Shown piece after piece: positions 3 through 6,134 of a stretch of DNA of 6,134 nucleotides. Positions within the stretch are counted from its first letter, which is position 1. Each line of letters opens with the position of its first letter. The notes below the pieces were generated by a model. That model was not told where the DNA came from. It saw only the letters and a program-made list of their open reading frames with translations, and made no database searches. Source of the DNA: Gemmataceae bacterium (GTDB lineage Bacteria > Planctomycetota > Planctomycetia > Gemmatales > Gemmataceae); assembly GCA_026418875.1 (NCBI GenBank), contig JAOAAM010000186.1, positions 1-6,134 on the forward strand. The letters are read 5' to 3'. The translations under genes were made by a program, and so were the position numbers.

Positions 3-617
3 CAAGCTTACGCTGCCGCATTACTTAACGTCTGCGAAACGCTGACGCAGAGAGCGCAACCCGCACCCGCGCTGGGAATCGGTGGCGGTTTCCACGACAT
101 GAAACAGCGCTTAACGCTCATCATGGCCACGGGTGCCCCGAAAAACACGCCGAGATTCGTTTGGGCACTGGGCTTGGTGATCGCATTGATCACTGTCCCA
201 AGTTGGGCGGCTCGGGAATCCGCATCGCCAGCCGAAGTCGATCTCGACTGGACTCCACCGGAGTTGGTCCTCTCACTTGACGCACATGAGGCCTTGGCCG
301 AATTACATCGGGCCACGCATTCACACGCCACGGATGAGTCCGGCGCCAATCATGCGAAACCGATTCCGGCCAATGCACGACGCCCCGAAATCTCACCCGG
401 ACTCGGCGATGTTCCCTCGACCATGCGCTACCGGATGGCCCCCGAATTAGCGCAACCCCTAGCCCGGCTGCTCCGCCGACTCGCCGCTCCGGATCGCCTG
501 ACGGCCAACGCGGACGGCGATCAGTTGATCGTCACGACTCGTGCCGAGGATCAACCGATCGTCGCTCGCCTCATTCATGCGATCGCCTCGTCGAGTTCGG
601 CCGAGAGTCCCCGATGA
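3..617 (+). CDS. M56 family (BlaR1/MecR1-like) membrane peptidase, C-terminal part, 5'-truncated by window edge
   Basis: The reading frame is open from the first bases and gives 204 residues before TGA at 615-617, so the ATG at 99 is very probably internal. Residues 2-9 (AYAAALLN), the segment ALGIGGGFHDMKQRLTLIM at about 23-41 and the hydrophobic helix at about 51-69 match the end of the Peptidase_M56 domain, where a conserved YA-x-x-LL helix and an R-(I/L)-x-x-I-(L/M) segment precede the last membrane helix. The zinc-binding HExxH would lie upstream, outside the window. After the helix comes an extension of about 135 residues. It ends in a small module (about 142-195) resembling a secretin-N-type alpha/beta domain that recurs in the next gene. 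M56 proteins are membrane sensor proteases, often paired with BlaI-type repressors, but no repressor is visible here. The next gene starts 38 bases downstream on the same strand, suggesting an operon. The family call is from motif memory, not a search. Confidence 0.75.
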   Translation, partial: QAYAAALLNVCETLTQRAQPAPALGIGGGFHDMKQRLTLIMATGAPKNTPRFVWALGLVIALITVPSWAARESASPAEVDLDWTPPELVLSLDAHEALAELHRATHSHATDESGANHAKPIPANARRPEISPGLGDVPSTMRYRMAPELAQPLARLLRRLAAPDRLTANADGDQLIVTTRAEDQPIVARLIHAIASSSSAESPR

Positions 618-640
618 TCTGCGTCCCTGGTTTTCTCACA

Positions 641-647
641 AAAGGAG
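641..647 (+). promoter_or_regulatory. Shine-Dalgarno site fixing the start at 656
   Basis: AAAGGAG lies 8 bases upstream of the ATG at 656. It decides between that start and the earlier in-frame ATG at 614, which overlaps the previous stop codon as ATGA. Starting at 656 places the signal peptide exactly at the N-terminus, whereas starting at 614 would add 14 residues in front of it. Confidence 0.8.
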
Positions 648-655
648 ATGCGACG

Positions 656-1948
656 ATGTCTCGATGGTTCGTGTTCACGTCGATTGTGGCGCTGGCTGTG
701 CCCCTGGCCCGAGCCGATGAACCTTCCGATGAGCCGCCGGCGGCCCGGAAGGGGATGCCCGAAGAGATCCGTCGGCTGGTGGAGGCTGCCGAGTCGCAGA
801 GAGCGAAAGCACAGCAGTTGATCGAACGGCTCACGCACGATCGGGAGCAGTGGTCAGCCGAGATTCAAAAAAGATTGCAGGCTGAACTCGCACGGTTTCA
901 AGAAGAGCGTCAACAGATCGAGTCCGCCTGGCGTCGCCGTCAGGAGCAGCTCCAAGAACAATGGCATGCGGAGCGTGCCCGTTTGGAGAAGGCCCTGGCA
1001 GAGCTGCAAATGCGGGAGGCAACGCGAGGGAATCCACCGGTCGCAGTTCCCCCGCAGGCGATCCCAGCACCCGCGGCTCCACCGCCAGCAGTCGCCCCAA
1101 TCCCTGGTCACAAGCCGCCTCAAGGTATTGTGGTCGCCGCGCCACCACCCTCACCCCAAGCGACTTCACCTGCGGCTCCGGGCAAGATTGTCCCTCCCCC
1201 AATGGCCGGAGCGTATATGGTCCCCCCGATGGCCGGAGCTTTTATGGTCCCGGCAGACGCTTCCGATGACGATTCAACCATCACACTCATCCGAAAGACC
1301 TACACCCTGAAGGACGAGCAAGCCAAGGCGCTCGCCGACTTCCTCAAAGCGTTCGTGAAGACCAAAGTGCTCGAGACTCAGATCGAGGGGGGTAAATTAA
1401 CCATCACCACGACTCCCGAGGTCCAATCGACCATCGGTCAGGTCGTCAACCTAATGACCGGCGAGGCCAAGAAACCCCGCATGCGGGTTTTTTTCGTCGA
1501 GCCAGAACGGCGAGAGGGAATGCACCTTCAAGAAAAGATGCAGTTTCAACTGTTGATCGATCCGGACAAGTCCAAGCCGGATTCGAAGAAGGAAAACGTC
1601 GGCAAGAAGCCCCACGACGGGGAGAAGGGCGAGAAATCTAAGAAAGCCGAACGGACGGAGTCCGACAAGTCCGAAGAGGCCAAATCCGACAAGGCCGAAA
1701 AGGCTAAGTCAGACAAGGCGGAAAAGGCCGAGTCGGACAAGAGGAAGGACACCGACGAGAAAAGCGAGAAGAAGCCCAGACAGGCCAAGAAGGAACGAGA
1801 AGAAGAGTCCGACAGCAAACCGGATAAAGCGAAAAAAGACAAAGAAAAGGAAGAGACCAAGGACAAAGACGACAACGGCAAGAAGGACAAGAAAGATGAC
1901 AAGGACGACAAAGATGACAAGGACGATGACGACGACCGAGTCGATTGA
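656..1948 (+). CDS. Secreted coiled-coil protein with secretin-N-like module and Lys/Asp-rich tail (uncharacterised)
   Basis: The protein has 430 residues and I do not recognise a named family. Residues 1-20 form a Sec signal peptide (MSRWFVFTSIVALAVPLARA) ending in an A-R-A cleavage site, so the protein is exported. Residues about 35-122 are a charged amphipathic helix rich in Glu, Gln and Arg, probably a coiled coil. Residues 126-200 are Pro/Ala-rich and contain a tandem MAGA(Y/F)MVP duplication. Residues about 207-302 are the only globular-looking part. Within it, 215-268 resembles a secretin N-type alpha/beta module, and the same pattern occurs at the C-terminus of the upstream M56 protein. 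Residues 303-430 are a low-complexity tail of Lys, Asp, Glu and Ser ending in a run of Asp. The gene lies 38 bases after the M56 gene and ends 21 bases before a strong hairpin, so the two are likely co-transcribed. A role as an envelope partner of the M56 protein is inference only. Confidence 0.8.
   Translation: MSRWFVFTSIVALAVPLARADEPSDEPPAARKGMPEEIRRLVEAAESQRAKAQQLIERLTHDREQWSAEIQKRLQAELARFQEERQQIESAWRRRQEQLQEQWHAERARLEKALAELQMREATRGNPPVAVPPQAIPAPAAPPPAVAPIPGHKPPQGIVVAAPPPSPQATSPAAPGKIVPPPMAGAYMVPPMAGAFMVPADASDDDSTITLIRKTYTLKDEQAKALADFLKAFVKTKVLETQIEGGKLTITTTPEVQSTIGQVVNLMTGEAKKPRMRVFFVEPERREGMHLQEKMQFQLLIDPDKSKPDSKKENVGKKPHDGEKGEKSKKAERTESDKSEEAKSDKAEKAKSDKAEKAESDKRKDTDEKSEKKPRQAKKEREEESDSKPDKAKKDKEKEETKDKDDNGKKDKKDDKDDKDDKDDDDDRVD
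1202..1255 (+). repeat. 27-bp tandem duplication in the coding sequence
   Basis: Two adjacent 27-base units at 1202-1228 and 1229-1255 encode MAGAYMVPP and MAGAFMVPA. They sit at the junction between the Pro-rich linker and the alpha/beta module of the secreted protein. The units differ at a few bases, so the duplication is not brand new. Confidence 0.8.
1682..1741 (+). repeat. 24-bp repeats encoding KSDKAEKA in the charged tail
   Basis: The units at 1682-1705 and 1706-1729 both encode KSDKAEKA, and a partial third unit (ESDK) follows at 1730-1741. They lie inside a longer low-complexity stretch of Lys, Asp, Glu and Ser codons (about 1562-1945) that becomes a KDD repeat near its end (about 1886-1934). 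Codons vary between units (TCC/TCA/TCG for Ser, GCC/GCG for Ala), so the protein repeat may be kept by selection on charge. Confidence 0.75.
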
Positions 1949-1969: not shown

Positions 1970-2003
1970 CACGGTCCGCAGGAGTCCCCCCCTGCGGACC
2001 GTG
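1970..2003. terminator. Perfect 13-bp hairpin between convergent genes, likely bidirectional terminator
   Basis: CACGGTCCGCAGG at 1970-1982 is exactly complementary to CCTGCGGACCGTG at 1991-2003, with an 8-base loop. It lies 21 bases after the stop of the plus-strand gene and 22 bases after the stop of the minus-strand DUF1559 gene. No clear T-run follows on the plus strand. On the minus strand the flank is moderately T-rich. It probably ends transcription from both sides, but without a proper U-tract this is not certain. Confidence 0.65.
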
Positions 2004-2025: not shown

Positions 2026-2859
2026 TCACGGCGTTGGAACTTCCCGACCGTAGTACGGTGCCAGTCGATTCGACAGGTAGCCGATATTGTTCAAGCGACG
2101 AAGTTCATTTGCTCCGACGCTCCACCAACTTGGGCTGGGCACCTCGACCTCGGTCAGCGCGTCCACGTGCCCATCGACGAATGCCACCATCGCAATTTTG
2201 CTGGCATGGCGGAAGTGAGTTGTAGGCTGAGCGGCCCCTGCCTTAGTGTTGACCGGAGCAGCGATGGAGTACGACTCTTGCAATTTCGGCGGACTACTCC
2301 ACGCGGCCACCAACGCCGAGTCCGAGAACATGTACGTCTGGGTTGAGCCAATGCCATTGACGATCTCGATCATCCTCCGCTTGATGACGAATGGCTGCGT
2401 CCAGTTGGGCGGAACCCAGTAAGTCGTACCCAATTCTCGGTTGTAGCCGTAGCCGCCGGTAAATCCCTGAAATTGTTTCTCGAGTTCATCCTCGGGCAAG
2501 CTGGGGCATTTCAGGATGGCGGCGTTGTTCTCGTAGTACGGCGTGAGGTGCCCTTTGGTCGGATCGATCTGCGGCGGCCAAGTCGGTTGCGCCTCGCCAA
2601 ACCAGTAGGTCGTGACGTACGGCCAGTTGGAAGGGTTCGGCGTCGTGAACGACTGCGGCAGGTGCCCTCGGGTGTCGTGAAAATTGTGTGCTGCCAAGGC
2701 TAACTGTTTCAAGTTATTTGCGCACTTGATGCGTGCAGCCGCCTCGCGCACTTTTTGCACCGCGGGCAACAACAGCCCGATCAAGACCGCGATGATCGCG
2801 ATCACGACCAACAACTCGATCAGGGTAAAAGCCAGACGAACGGCGCGTAGCGCCTTCAT
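2026..2859 (-). CDS. DUF1559 domain protein with prepilin-type N-terminus
   Basis: The protein has 277 residues. The N-terminus [10 protein letters not shown] followed by [20 protein letters not shown] is a type IV prepilin/pseudopilin class III signal. The residue before F11 is Ala rather than the usual Gly. The hydrophobic helix (about 11-33) continues into [20 protein letters not shown] and [12 protein letters not shown], the hallmark of the large planctomycete DUF1559 family. The C-terminal part has [20 protein letters not shown] (216-235), the family's His-to-Asp-Gly processing-associated motif, with ten residues between His218 and Asp229 by my count instead of nine. Cys46 and Cys118 could form a disulfide. 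A Shine-Dalgarno AAGGAG lies 7 bases before the ATG. The family is thought to be exported through a type II/IV-pilus-like route and its molecular roles are largely unknown. It is the only gene in its transcription unit and sits behind a cobalamin riboswitch, so its expression probably depends on vitamin B12. Confidence 0.92.
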
Positions 2860-2865
2860 GATGGG

Positions 2866-2896
2866 ACTCCTTCTGCCGGATCGGGCAGGTTAGAGT
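2866..2896 (-). promoter_or_regulatory. Candidate Shine-Dalgarno-masking hairpin (riboswitch expression platform)
   Basis: In the minus-strand RNA, CTGCC (2884-2888) pairs with GGCAG (2873-2877) around a 6-base loop. After a small internal loop, ACTCU (2892-2896) pairs with GGAGU (2866-2870, one G-U), which covers most of the Shine-Dalgarno AAGGAG at 2867-2872. A competing pairing, GATCGG at 2903-2908 with CCGATC at 2879-2884, would involve the loop and one inner-stem base. The arrangement fits control of translation initiation by the upstream riboswitch. No folding program was run. Confidence 0.5.
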
Positions 2897-2908
2897 GACG
2901 AACCGATC

Positions 2909-3086
2909 TCGACAGGCAGGTCTTCTGGCTTTCGGCTCATGGCGAACCCGGAACGGCCTTCCCACTCATCGCAGTGGCCAATGTGTGTTCCGGGGTCTGG
3001 CCGATCACAGCGGCGTCCCCGCGACGGACTTGCACCGTCTTCCCTCTTCGTCCCGCATCCGTCTCCAGCATGCGGGAACCTGTCGA
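2909..3086 (-). promoter_or_regulatory. Cobalamin (vitamin B12) riboswitch upstream of the DUF1559 gene
   Basis: Read on the minus strand, about 178 nt match the cobalamin riboswitch core. P1 is a perfect 8-bp pairing of TCGACAGG (3079-3086) with CCTGTCGA (2909-2916). P2 is TCCCGCAT/ATGCGGGA (3070-3077 with 3051-3058). The conserved GGTGCAAGTCC (3026-3036) sits in a GACGG/CCGTC hairpin (3023-3039) and is followed by a GCCGCTGTGAT segment. A perfect 8-bp stem CCCGGAAC/GTTCCGGG (2987-2994 with 2947-2954) encloses GGCCACT...AGTGGGAAGGCC, the usual CCACT...GGGAAGG element. The 3' end carries the B12 box AAGCCAGAAGACCTGCCTG (2913-2931). It should bind a cobalamin, with the form (adenosyl, methyl or aquo) not decided here, and usually represses the downstream gene when bound. 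The only downstream gene is the DUF1559 protein, whose start lies 49 bases after P1. Confidence 0.93.
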
Positions 3087-3099
3087 ACTAGACGAAGAA

Positions 3100-3126: not shown

Positions 3127-3193
3127 GCCGCCAATGACCGACACCCCCGGTCCACAGGCGTCTTCCGCATCCGAACGGCTGTACTATGTCATC

Positions 3194-4216
3194 ATGATCT
3201 TCCTCGATTACGAATTGCCGCCGGAATTGATCGCTCAATACCCAGCCCAACGCCGGGACGAATCGCGCCTAATGTTCGTCCACCGCGCGACAAGGACAAT
3301 CCAGCATCATGTCTTTCGTGACTTGCCGACCTTGCTCCAGTCCGGCGACCTTTTGGTTCTCAATAACACCCAAGTGCTGCCAGCCCGACTGTACGGACGA
3401 AGGCAATCGACCGGCGGGAAGTGGGAGGGCCTCTTTCTCGGTGAGTCTGGCGGGTTGTGGGAGTTGGCATGTCAAACACGCGGCCAGTTACACACGGGTG
3501 AACGCATCGAGATCGATCCGCCGGGGCTGCGGCTTCAGCTGGTCGAGAAGACAAGCGACGGTCGTTGGCGGGTTATCCCGGACCCAACCGGGGCGACCCT
3601 GACCTTGCTGCAAAAGCACGGACATATCCCCCTGCCGCCCTACATTCGAAAGGGTCGAGCCGAAGCGGCCGACGCACAAAGGTATCAGACGATCTATGCC
3701 AGTCAGCCGGGCGCGGTCGCCGCTCCGACGGCGGGACTGCATTTCACGCCGGAAGTTTTTGAAGCCCTCGCAGCCCGCGGGATTGACCGGGCCTTCCTCA
3801 CGTTGCATGTCGGAGCCGGGACGTTCGAGCCGATCCGCACGGAGGATTATCGCCAACACGTGATGCACGCGGAGTATGGTGAGTTGCCCGCTTCCACCGC
3901 CGCGGCGATTCTCCGCTGCCGTCAGCGAGGGGGGCGAGTCGTCGCCGTGGGAACAACTAGCGTGCGGGTGCTGGAGACGGTGGCCGCCTCGGGCGAAATT
4001 CGGGAATGGCGCGGCGAGACGAGGCTATACATCCACCCTCCGTATCCGTTTCGCGCCGTGGATGCGTTAATCACGAACTTTCACCTGCCACGGAGTACGC
4101 TCCTGTTACTCGTGGGCGCATTTGTCGGGGGTGAGCTCTTGCAGGATGCTTACGCGGCGGCTGTGGCCGAGAAATACCACTTCTACAGTTATGGTGATGC
4201 CATGCTGATCGTGTAA
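3194..4216 (+). CDS. queA: S-adenosylmethionine:tRNA ribosyltransferase-isomerase (QueA)
   Basis: QueA transfers and isomerises the ribosyl group of S-adenosylmethionine onto 7-aminomethyl-7-deazaguanine at tRNA position 34, making epoxyqueuosine, the next-to-last step of queuosine synthesis. The 340-residue product (Escherichia coli QueA has 356) is co-linear with the family from end to end. It has YELPPELIAQYP (6-17), GDLLVLNNTQVLPARLYGRR (51-70), PLPPYI (146-151), YQTIYASQPGAVAAPTAGLH (164-183), LHVGAGTFEPIR (204-215), VAVGTTSVRVLE (250-261), ALITNFHLPRSTLLLLVGAF (291-310) and YSYGDAMLI near the end. An in-frame ATG at 3134 would add 20 residues (MTDTPGPQAS...) unlike the family, so 3194 is preferred. 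Neither start has a clear Shine-Dalgarno. The gene is divergent from the riboswitch/DUF1559 unit and has no tgt neighbour in the window. It looks intact. Confidence 0.97.
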   Translation: MIFLDYELPPELIAQYPAQRRDESRLMFVHRATRTIQHHVFRDLPTLLQSGDLLVLNNTQVLPARLYGRRQSTGGKWEGLFLGESGGLWELACQTRGQLHTGERIEIDPPGLRLQLVEKTSDGRWRVIPDPTGATLTLLQKHGHIPLPPYIRKGRAEAADAQRYQTIYASQPGAVAAPTAGLHFTPEVFEALAARGIDRAFLTLHVGAGTFEPIRTEDYRQHVMHAEYGELPASTAAAILRCRQRGGRVVAVGTTSVRVLETVAASGEIREWRGETRLYIHPPYPFRAVDALITNFHLPRSTLLLLVGAFVGGELLQDAYAAAVAEKYHFYSYGDAMLIV

Positions 4217-4389: not shown

Positions 4390-6115
4390 ATGAACTGGTT
4401 GCGCGAACCGGATGCCGAGCCGATTCCCGGTTATCGTCTGCTCTGCCCGCTCGGAACGGGCGGATTTGGCGAGGTATGGAAATGCGTCGCCCCGGGGAAC
4501 ATCCACAAAGCGATCAAATTTGTGTACGGCAATCTGAACTCGCTGGATGGCGACGGCTATCGGGCCGAGCAAGAGTTCAAAGCCGTGCAGAAAATGAAGG
4601 AAATCCGCCACCCCTTCATCCTCTCGATGGAACGGGTCGACATCGTGGAAGGCGACCTCGCCATCGTCATGGAACTGGCCGACAGCAGCTTGCACGACCT
4701 GCTGCAACAGTACCAAGCGGAGGGCTACCCCGGCATCCCCCGACAGAAATTGCTCCGCTACCTCCGCGATGCCGCGGATGGGCTTGATTACCTGAACGAC
4801 TGCGGCTTGCAGCACCTCGACGTGAAACCGAGAAATCTGTTTCTGGTCGGTGATCGGGTGAAGGTGGCGGACTTCGGCTTGGTCAAGAACCTCGACCGCC
4901 AAAGTTCGTCCGGACTGCTCGCCGGCGTCACACCCATCTACGCGGCCCCAGAGACCTTTTCCGGGAAATTCTCCCGCCATTCCGATCAATACAGCTTGGC
5001 TATCGTCTACATCGAATTGCTGACGGGGAAGCGGCCGTTCAATGGCAAAAGCATCCGCTCGTTGGCTTTTCAACACGTCTCCGAGCCGCCCGACCTATCC
5101 GAAGTGCCGCCGACCGACCGTCCGATCCTCCTCCGTGCGTTGGCCAAGGATCCCGAGGAACGATTCCCGAGTTGTCAGGCGATGATCTCGGCGCTGATGC
5201 AGGCCAGCCCGAAGAGCGATGACGACGGACTGTCGCCAGCGTCGCCGAGATCCCAGCCGACCCCGAGCCGAAAAGGACAGTCCGACACCAAGTCGCCTGT
5301 CGAACCGCATCGAAATGGCGTCGCGCTCAGTGGGCTGGAACGCACCGTCGTGAACGCCGAGACGGCGATCCTTCGACCGACGCTGATTGTTGCTGCGGGC
5401 AACTTCGGGCGCAAGGCACTGCTGGATCTCCGTTATCGTTTGCTGGATCGCTTGGGCGACCTGTCGCAGGTACCTGTCTTCCGATTCCTGTACATCGACT
5501 CAGATCCGGAAGGATTGCACGATTCGCAGCAGGGAGTGCCGGGAGTCGCTTTATCCGCATCCCAGGTTTTCCCGTTGCCGCTGCAACCCGTGACGAACTA
5601 CCGTCGCCGCACACTGGAGCACCTCTCCGATTGGCTACCCAGGGAGAAACTCAACGCCCTTCCCCGCTCTTTGCAACCGCATGGTTCCCGTGCCCTGGGT
5701 CGTTTGGCGTTTCACGACAATTACCTGCGTTTGATGACTCGCCTGCGGCGCGAGCTGCAAATTGCGACTCATCCCGAGTCGTTAGCGGAGTCTGTGTCGC
5801 AGACGGGGCTTCTCTTGCGCGACAATCACCCGCGGATCATCATTTTGGCCTCTGCCTGCGGCGGCTCCGCCGGGATGATCGTCGATTTGGCTTACGCCCT
5901 GAACCGCTTGTGCCAGCAATTGCACCTGAAATCGGAGAAACCGAACCTATTCCTCTTCTGCGGTGCGCCCGGCGATCCTGCCACACCGGCGGAAGAACTC
6001 GCGAACCTGTATGCGACGTTGACGGAAGTGCATCACTACCATGCCGGGGAGACCGGCTTCTCAGCGCAGTACGGCCCCGATTGCAAACCGGTGATCGACG
6101 CCTCGGCCCCGATCC
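4390..6115 (+). CDS. Hanks-type Ser/Thr protein kinase fused to a tubulin-like (Tubulin_2-type) domain, 3'-truncated
   Basis: About 575 genomic residues are present. The frame runs on into the adapter and no stop is reached. Residues about 14-270 are a complete kinase domain: glycine loop LGTGGFGEVW (21-30), ATP lysine K43 in KAIKF, helix-C Glu around E60/E62, catalytic loop HLDVKPRN (142-149) with D144, K146 and N149, DFG (161-163), AAPE (185-188), D199 before the YSL helix, and ERF (257-259). HLD in place of HRD makes it a non-RD kinase. A Ser/Pro-rich linker (about 272-325) follows. Residues from about 329 resemble the Tubulin_2 family: LIVAAGNFGRKALLDLRYRL (332-351), FRFLYIDSD (364-372), GSRALGRLAFHDN (432-444) and IIILASACGGSAGMIVDLAY (483-502), the counterpart of the FtsZ/tubulin GGGTGSG loop. 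There is no membrane helix in the visible part. It starts 173 bases after queA, with no clear Shine-Dalgarno before the ATG. The kinase call is firm and the tubulin-like call is from pattern recognition. Confidence 0.88.
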
Positions 6116-6134
6116 CTGTCTCTTATACACATCT
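6116..6134 (+). other. Tn5/Nextera mosaic-end sequencing adapter (artefact)
   Basis: CTGTCTCTTATACACATCT is identical to the 19-base Tn5 mosaic end used in Nextera libraries. It ends the window exactly, so it is untrimmed adapter and not genome sequence. The last residues of the kinase/tubulin-like frame (PVSYTH) come from it. Confidence 0.97.

Follow-up and report, generated by a model that had tools for sequence, protein, structure and literature searches.

Cobalamin riboswitches precede one subfamily of DUF1559 pseudopilins in the Planctomycetia: a candidate route for corrinoid capture

In a 6,134-nucleotide (nt) contig of a Gemmataceae bacterium (JAOAAM010000186.1, assembly GCA_026418875.1), hereafter the window, a cobalamin riboswitch precedes a gene encoding a DUF1559 protein with a pilin-like N-terminus. 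The source belongs to the family Gemmataceae, order Gemmatales, class Planctomycetia in the GTDB taxonomy, and the surveys described here were nested accordingly. They showed that the usual riboswitch target is one subfamily of DUF1559, and that the pairing is nearly constant in the class genomes searched. The protein is probably a B12-repressed pseudopilin made under B12 shortage, which would help the cell to capture corrinoids.

A first-pass annotation of the window had placed a cobalamin riboswitch on the minus strand, and a cmscan search with RF00174 confirmed it, the match covering positions 1-189 of the 189 in the model, with a score of 101.3 bits (gathering score 31.5; Table 1). The stretch to which it had been assigned, 2026..3086, does contain the riboswitch and its gene, but its end at 3086 falls 12 bases short of the aptamer match, which extends to 3098. 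The description of helix P1 as perfect was too strong, since a few pairs of this closing helix are marked as non-standard in the cmscan alignment. From the aptamer match to the ATG of the DUF1559 gene there are 38 bases. That gene stands alone in the window because an inverted repeat and a convergent gene lie downstream; it was correctly described as the lone target here, although this does not hold in general, since in other families such genes often head a cluster. The draft genome from which the window comes (3.45 Mb, 816 contigs, 83% complete) contains no RF00174 match other than this one, together with 21 PF07596 (DUF1559) matches and two B12-binding domain matches.

At the N-terminus of the window protein a prepilin cleavage/methylation motif is followed by a long hydrophobic helix, as in type IV pilin-like proteins and pseudopilins. 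PF07963 (N_methyl) scores 23.2 bits (cut-off 21.2) and TIGR02532 scores 23.1 (cut-off 16.3), while PF07596 reaches 53.8 bits (cut-off 23.3) with profile positions 1-130 of 268 aligned. PF07596 and PF07963 are the sole Pfam matches at E ≤ 0.001; at this threshold neither the TonB-dependent receptor domains PF00593 and PF07715 nor PF01497 (Peripla_BP_2) was matched. The predicted structure consists of a helix at residues 13-64 and a beta-rich C-terminal domain, spanning roughly 65-277 (mean predicted local distance difference test score, 91.1). The window protein is a predicted envelope protein with a type IV pilin N-terminus.

The subfamily was defined with a profile (A1) of the C-terminal domain only, made from 33 of 76 aligned proteins with the pilin N-terminus excluded; the window protein scores 243.7 bits against it, but is itself one of its rows. 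The cut-off of 136 bits was chosen after viewing the list, in which there is no clean gap (137.0, 134.5, 125.2), and a gene was counted as linked when an RF00174 match on its own strand lay 0-1500 nt upstream. In the 102 genomes of the order, 79 matches of at least 136 bits were found, of which 75 were riboswitch-linked. The linked genes are spread over 72 genomes and 31 genera, with one to three profile matches per genome where the subfamily is present. As for the unlinked members, that of G069 is accompanied by a partial riboswitch broken off by the contig end, that of G050 by a weak AdoCbl-II match (35.0 bits, under the cut-off of 36.5), and the remaining two (G068:C132 and G084:C209) sit at contig ends. 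Among weaker profile matches, linkage was seen for 2/25 at 95-135 bits (the second of two tandem genes and a member broken at a contig end) and for 0/5 below 95 bits. DUF1559 in general can therefore be ruled out as the riboswitch target, since related paralogs are hardly linked. Six sampled genomes, with 21, 18, 129, 79, 100 and 57 PF07596 matches, contain 11 riboswitches in total; one in each genome precedes a subfamily member, the remaining five are followed by genes of DUF6580 type, NrdA type or other kinds, and no DUF1559 gene outside the subfamily follows any of the 11.

When the search was extended to 397 genomes of the class, subfamily profile matches were found in 177, among them G163, where the riboswitch-linked gene occupies G163:C1:2425819-2426358 (-). 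Genomes outside the order had contributed nothing to profile A1, and therefore provide an out-of-sample test. Among the matches listed outside the order, 39/59 have a listed riboswitch 374-691 nt upstream, and cmscan found a same-strand upstream RF00174 match in 16 of the other 20, bringing the linkage to 55/59; of the four still lacking a match, G218 and G332 are cut short by a contig end, while G321 and G317 are not. Named GTDB loci found with the profile, which overlap the genome sets surveyed, gave an upstream RF00174 match in 69/80 (17, 18, 17 and 17 of 20); of the 11 misses, seven lie within 720 bases of a contig end and four (L194, L226, L237, L240) do not. These loci include Gemmata, Fimbriiglobus, Schlesneria, Fuerstiella, Thermogutta, Pirellulaceae and strain Pan216. 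Three linked loci (L213, L223, L243) are labelled Candidatus Kuenenia stuttgartiensis; Kuenenia is an anammox genus of another class, and the labels may be wrong. The RF00174 score and the survey rule out chance or artefact as the source of the pairing. The first-pass annotation had proposed looking for the same arrangement in other planctomycetes, and the riboswitch does recur before DUF1559 genes, the target being one subfamily rather than DUF1559 at large. In a tree of 79 proteins a starred branch separates the riboswitch-linked subfamily rows from other DUF1559s; this tree took about half of the in-family linked proteins, its class rows were labelled by motif and not by riboswitch, and the rows labelled 'other' from L261, L262, L263, L266 and L092_o1 are actually riboswitch-linked members. 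A further alignment (A3) combined the window protein with 94 of the 120 homologues among the matches listed.

Within the family, RF00174 was present in 83/95 genomes, and the genes downstream of 132 riboswitch sites were read. A pilin motif occurs no more than 900 nt downstream at 78/132 of these sites; six of the 78 proteins resemble ordinary DUF1559s, and nearly all the others match profile A1. The C-terminal motifs of the subfamily are YWFG, G-L-x-P-Y-x-E-N-N, C-P, G-G-Y-x-Y-N and F-R-H...D-G-H-V-E, and mean identity to the window protein was 47% over 76 aligned proteins, the window protein itself and the six of ordinary type included. These six (261-333 residues; sites 51, 60, 63, 80, 108 and 109, in genomes G051 twice, G094, G014, G031 and G005; loci L051, L060, L037, L079, L104 and L105) form a second riboswitch-linked group, judged by eye, in a separate part of the tree, so DUF1559 proteins may have been recruited to cobalamin riboswitches more than once. 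At the 54 family sites without a pilin motif, 12 targets belong to DUF6580 and 10 to NrdA, others being MetE, BtuF-like, CobN or Mg-chelatase (assigned by cluster), while at 17/54 quick labels placed no gene in the main B12 clusters. Pfam searches of representative family targets returned NrdA, NrdB, MetE, MetF, Peripla_BP_2, DUF6580 and Diphthami_syn_2, as well as CobN, Mg-chelatase, CbiM, CobB/CobQ-type, CobO, FecCD and an ABC protein.

Some riboswitch sites had other arrangements. At L014, L015 and L035 (genomes G009, G008 and G011) the gene behind the cobalamin riboswitch encodes a member of a protein family whose motif resembles VVDWK...WGYRWDG. The L035 member ends in a PEP-CTERM motif, and the family is a further surface-protein candidate for the B12 regulon. 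At L116 and L120 (G030 and G029) the riboswitch precedes a protein of 436-468 residues, which in L116 carries a TIGR03067 domain; neither genome has a subfamily profile match. Tandem cobalamin riboswitch matches precede a single pseudopilin gene in two cases, three at G091:C797:2242-4291 (L111) and two at G059:C65:1953-2449 (L081), the weakest in each being below the gathering score.

In many leaders a hairpin with the consensus YGCC-CGnYCC-GGCR stands right before the Shine-Dalgarno sequence. An alignment (A4) was made of 45 of the 47 distinct hairpins, L031 and L050, whose register is shifted, being left out; it does not include the 18 leaders lacking the hairpin pattern. Since the search pattern demanded most of the inner G-C pairs, it is mainly the outer pairs that test covariation. 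Changes on both sides were seen in 5/7 pairs, and the covariation score was 0.353, compared with 0.214 in shuffled alignments, none of 500 being as high. Cells with both-side changes numbered 50 (21.5 in shuffles), and pairing reached 83.5%, against 29-52% in slid versions. The hairpin plus Shine-Dalgarno arrangement was present in 52/78 pilin-type leaders, 18/53 other riboswitch leaders and 24/930 random windows. In the window leader, ACUCU is able to pair with GGAGU of the Shine-Dalgarno sequence around the hairpin, and the Shine-Dalgarno sequence is mostly paired in minimum-energy folds; across 66 leaders such pairing was not clearly above that of shuffles. A run of at least five T occurs somewhere in 13/66 leaders. 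Transcription termination by the conserved hairpin is disfavoured, since no U-run follows it, and a kissing loop between the hairpin loop and a fixed aptamer site was rejected, the window having a match (GAUCGG) but no consistent partner being found across 59 leaders. The hairpin at 2873-2888 is likely part of the expression platform. As it covaries and abuts the Shine-Dalgarno sequence with no U-run after it, control is inferred, with moderate confidence, to be exerted at translation.

The leader also bears on whether the DUF1559 gene is the true target, or a passenger behind a small open reading frame or RNA lying in the leader. With leaders 38-374 bases long (start codons chosen by script) there is some space for such an element, but the subfamily pairing (75/79 in the order and 55/59 among the matches listed outside it) is maintained despite varying leader length and neighbours, and the conserved hairpin abuts the Shine-Dalgarno sequence of the DUF1559 gene itself, making a passenger role highly improbable.

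BtuF is the periplasmic B12-binding protein of the family PF01497. In 13/20 loci of other families of the class, the 20 having been chosen by hand and not at random, the subfamily gene heads a co-directional cluster with a DUF6580 gene and/or a BtuF-like gene. In L255 (G354) the riboswitch is followed, in order, by DUF1559, a protein of 111 residues whose start looks lipoprotein-like (by eye), Diphthami_syn_2, DUF6580, alpha/beta hydrolase and Peripla_BP_2; L264 (G103) has the same order minus the alpha/beta hydrolase. The name 'BtuF-like' rests on family and context, since these proteins all score below the NCBIfam cut-offs, that of BtuF PRK03379 included. In the window's own family the pseudopilin and DUF6580 units are more often split, each behind its own riboswitch. 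DUF6580 linkage was tested on all 30 family matches of at least 145 bits plus 15 weaker ones. Among the 30, a cobalamin riboswitch precedes 16 by no more than 250 nt, and six more trail a riboswitch-pseudopilin gene by 27-914 nt (in G005, G006, G007, G015, G022 and G093), so that 22/30 are within 2.5 kb behind a cobalamin riboswitch and 8/30 are not. The sister species of the window genome, G002, has two riboswitches, one before a DUF6580 gene with a gene of the BtuF-like cluster and the other before the DUF1559 gene; the one DUF6580 match in the window's draft genome is not near any riboswitch. A conserved riboswitch position and clustering in relatives, as expected of a B12 uptake regulon, were thus both found, although the window itself shows no cluster. 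DUF6580 (PF20221; for example in L007, L032, L255 and L264) is likely a cobalamin permease.

These neighbours help to weigh an alternative in which the protein serves a secretion or pilus machine as a B12-regulated pseudopilin; the machine would export or mount an adhesin, hydrolase or carrier, and the protein would itself make no contact with B12. The N-terminus of the window protein matches GspG/GspH and type IV pilin models (below whole-protein cut-offs), its modelled fold looks pilin-like, and an excerpt of one study describes Tuwongella immobilis proteins with both domains as fractionating with detergent-soluble material (PMC8567305). Yet the partners in the 13/20 other-family loci are of transport type (DUF6580, Peripla_BP_2), and no secretion gene was noticed in these loci, in which no profile search was aimed at such genes. 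A part in a secretion machine is accordingly judged unlikely.

CbiC is a marker of corrin ring synthesis. It was found in 6/102 genomes of the order and 17/397 of the class, while B12-binding domains were found in 100/102 order genomes; in the 83%-complete draft genome of the window neither the CbiC profile nor the TonB receptor profile gave a match. The subfamily was present in 1/6 order genomes with CbiC and in 74/96 of the others (Fisher P = 0.005; P = 0.009 among genomes at least 90% complete). Within genus g15, G038 and G039 have the riboswitch and pseudopilin but not CbiC, whereas in G036 and G037 CbiC is present and a pseudopilin match is absent; in G037 a riboswitch scoring 41.0 bits lies before a CobN-cluster gene. 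Some genomes run counter to this pattern: G001 has both CbiC and the subfamily, and G203 and G224, outside the order, carry CbiC together with a riboswitch-linked subfamily match. An excerpt on the planctomycete Stratiformator vulcanicus describes MetH and no de novo cobalamin synthesis (PMC10509075). TonB-dependent receptors were found in just 26/102 order genomes, leaving most of them without a visible BtuB candidate; the association between TonB receptor and subfamily was weakly negative, and not significant within the family.

A need for imported B12 would also suit a pseudopilin that attaches B12-starved cells to B12-producing neighbours or particles, scavenging being then indirect. The absence of a CbiC match in 96/102 genomes and the B12-binding domains in 100/102 would fit such attachment, as would the DUF1559 proteins reported from detergent-soluble fractions (PMC8567305, excerpt). 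The clustering with BtuF-like and DUF6580 genes favours uptake over adhesion, however, and attachment is considered quite improbable. The suggestion made at first pass of an exported protein responding to B12 status, possibly capturing B12, gains support, at the level of sequence, from the riboswitch pairing, the DUF6580/BtuF-like clustering and the scarcity of the subfamily among genomes that carry CbiC.

In riboswitches of the RF00174 class, binding of B12 by the RNA lowers expression. Corrinoid capture by a B12-repressed pseudopilin would draw its regulatory direction from this class, its site of action from the prepilin motif and its function from the gene context. When B12 is plentiful, the riboswitch would likely shut off DUF1559 translation; under B12 shortage the predicted envelope pseudopilin would be produced. 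Prepilin processing would leave the protein held in the envelope by its N-terminal helix, either singly or as part of a pilus-like fibre. The C-terminal domain might then bind a corrinoid or corrinoid carrier, which is the weakest step, and the corrinoid would be handed to a BtuF-like protein and an inner-membrane permease of DUF6580 or FecCD type. Linkage to the riboswitch in dozens of genera, often in clusters with genes of B12-uptake type, makes the pseudopilin likely to be an unrecognised B12-scavenging tool. A more specific form of this idea, advanced tentatively and rated at somewhat under an even chance, is that in planctomycetes the TonB/BtuB route is replaced by a pilin-based receptor, the C-terminal domain of which would bind corrinoids at the surface or in the periplasm and pass them to BtuF-like and DUF6580 proteins; B12 binding by the pseudopilin is itself a putative property.

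BtuB is a TonB-dependent outer-membrane B12 receptor under cobalamin riboswitch control. The window system resembles it as an envelope B12-acquisition candidate behind RF00174 in a B12-importing diderm, but the window protein has a pilin-type N-terminus in place of a TonB receptor domain. BtuG and BtuH of Bacteroidetes are surface B12-capture lipoproteins that act with BtuB; the window protein would likewise be a non-barrel surface B12 captor under riboswitch control, but it is of prepilin type, a difference drawn from description and not from sequence comparison. BtuF-like genes partner the subfamily in some other-family loci, but the window protein itself differs from BtuF in having no PF01497 match. 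With the other DUF1559/SBP_bac_10 paralogs of planctomycetes it shares PF07596 and the prepilin motif, but it belongs to a distinct subfamily that is usually led by a riboswitch.

DUF1559 is among the most expanded planctomycete families, and the class-wide riboswitch link ties a member of this very large family of unassigned function to a specific metabolite, giving one subfamily a testable job; more generally, each of the other subfamilies may handle a solute of its own. The link is also relevant to the way in which B12 is taken up by diderms that mostly lack corrin synthesis and mostly lack a visible TonB receptor. A pilin-based receptor, if real, would be the first pilin-type vitamin receptor known to us, and its role the first demonstrated for any member of the DUF1559 paralog family of which we are aware. 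In Planctopirus limnophila, according to an excerpt, 68 DUF1559 paralogs make up the biggest paralog group and two are essential (PMC10632474); a strict requirement for B12 is reported for this species (PMC12639061). An RF00174 match is reported for the planctomycete Thermogutta terrifontis in a passage that does not name its target (PMC5673643), and B12 use has been surveyed generally (PMC2667541, in excerpt). Literature searches that lacked most subscription papers found nothing on cobalamin riboswitches together with DUF1559, on 'cobalamin riboswitch' with 'planctomycet', or on DUF6580, and for cobalamin riboswitches with pilin returned only work unrelated by title.

Table 1. Features of the window
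Feature	Position	Strand	Evidence
Cobalamin riboswitch aptamer RF00174 (5' end at 3098)	2898..3098	-	cmscan, 101.3 bits, E 3.3e-25
Hairpin CUGCC-CGAUCC-GGCAG, directly 5' of the Shine-Dalgarno sequence	2873..2888	-	covariation, 45 leaders
Shine-Dalgarno sequence AAGGAG of the DUF1559 gene	2867..2872	-	read from sequence
Riboswitch-linked DUF1559 pseudopilin gene, 277 residues	2026..2859	-	PF07596 and PF07963 matches
13-bp inverted repeat between convergent genes, probable bidirectional terminator	1970..2003	no strand	by eye, unscored
Convergent gene downstream of the DUF1559 gene	614-1948	+	open reading frame
queA, upstream of and divergent from the riboswitch	3134-4216	+	
Ser/Thr kinase domain fused to Tubulin_2 domain	4390-6132	+	Pfam

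QueG, which catalyses a later step of queuosine synthesis, uses B12; the divergent position of queA with respect to the cobalamin riboswitch may be a coincidence or reflect mild co-regulation. The convergent gene encodes a protein without a Pfam match, which ends in an unusual tail with many Lys, Asp, Glu and Ser residues. The contig end, at window positions 6116-6134, reads CTGTCTCTTATACACATCT, the Nextera transposon adapter, which we take to be a residue of library preparation.
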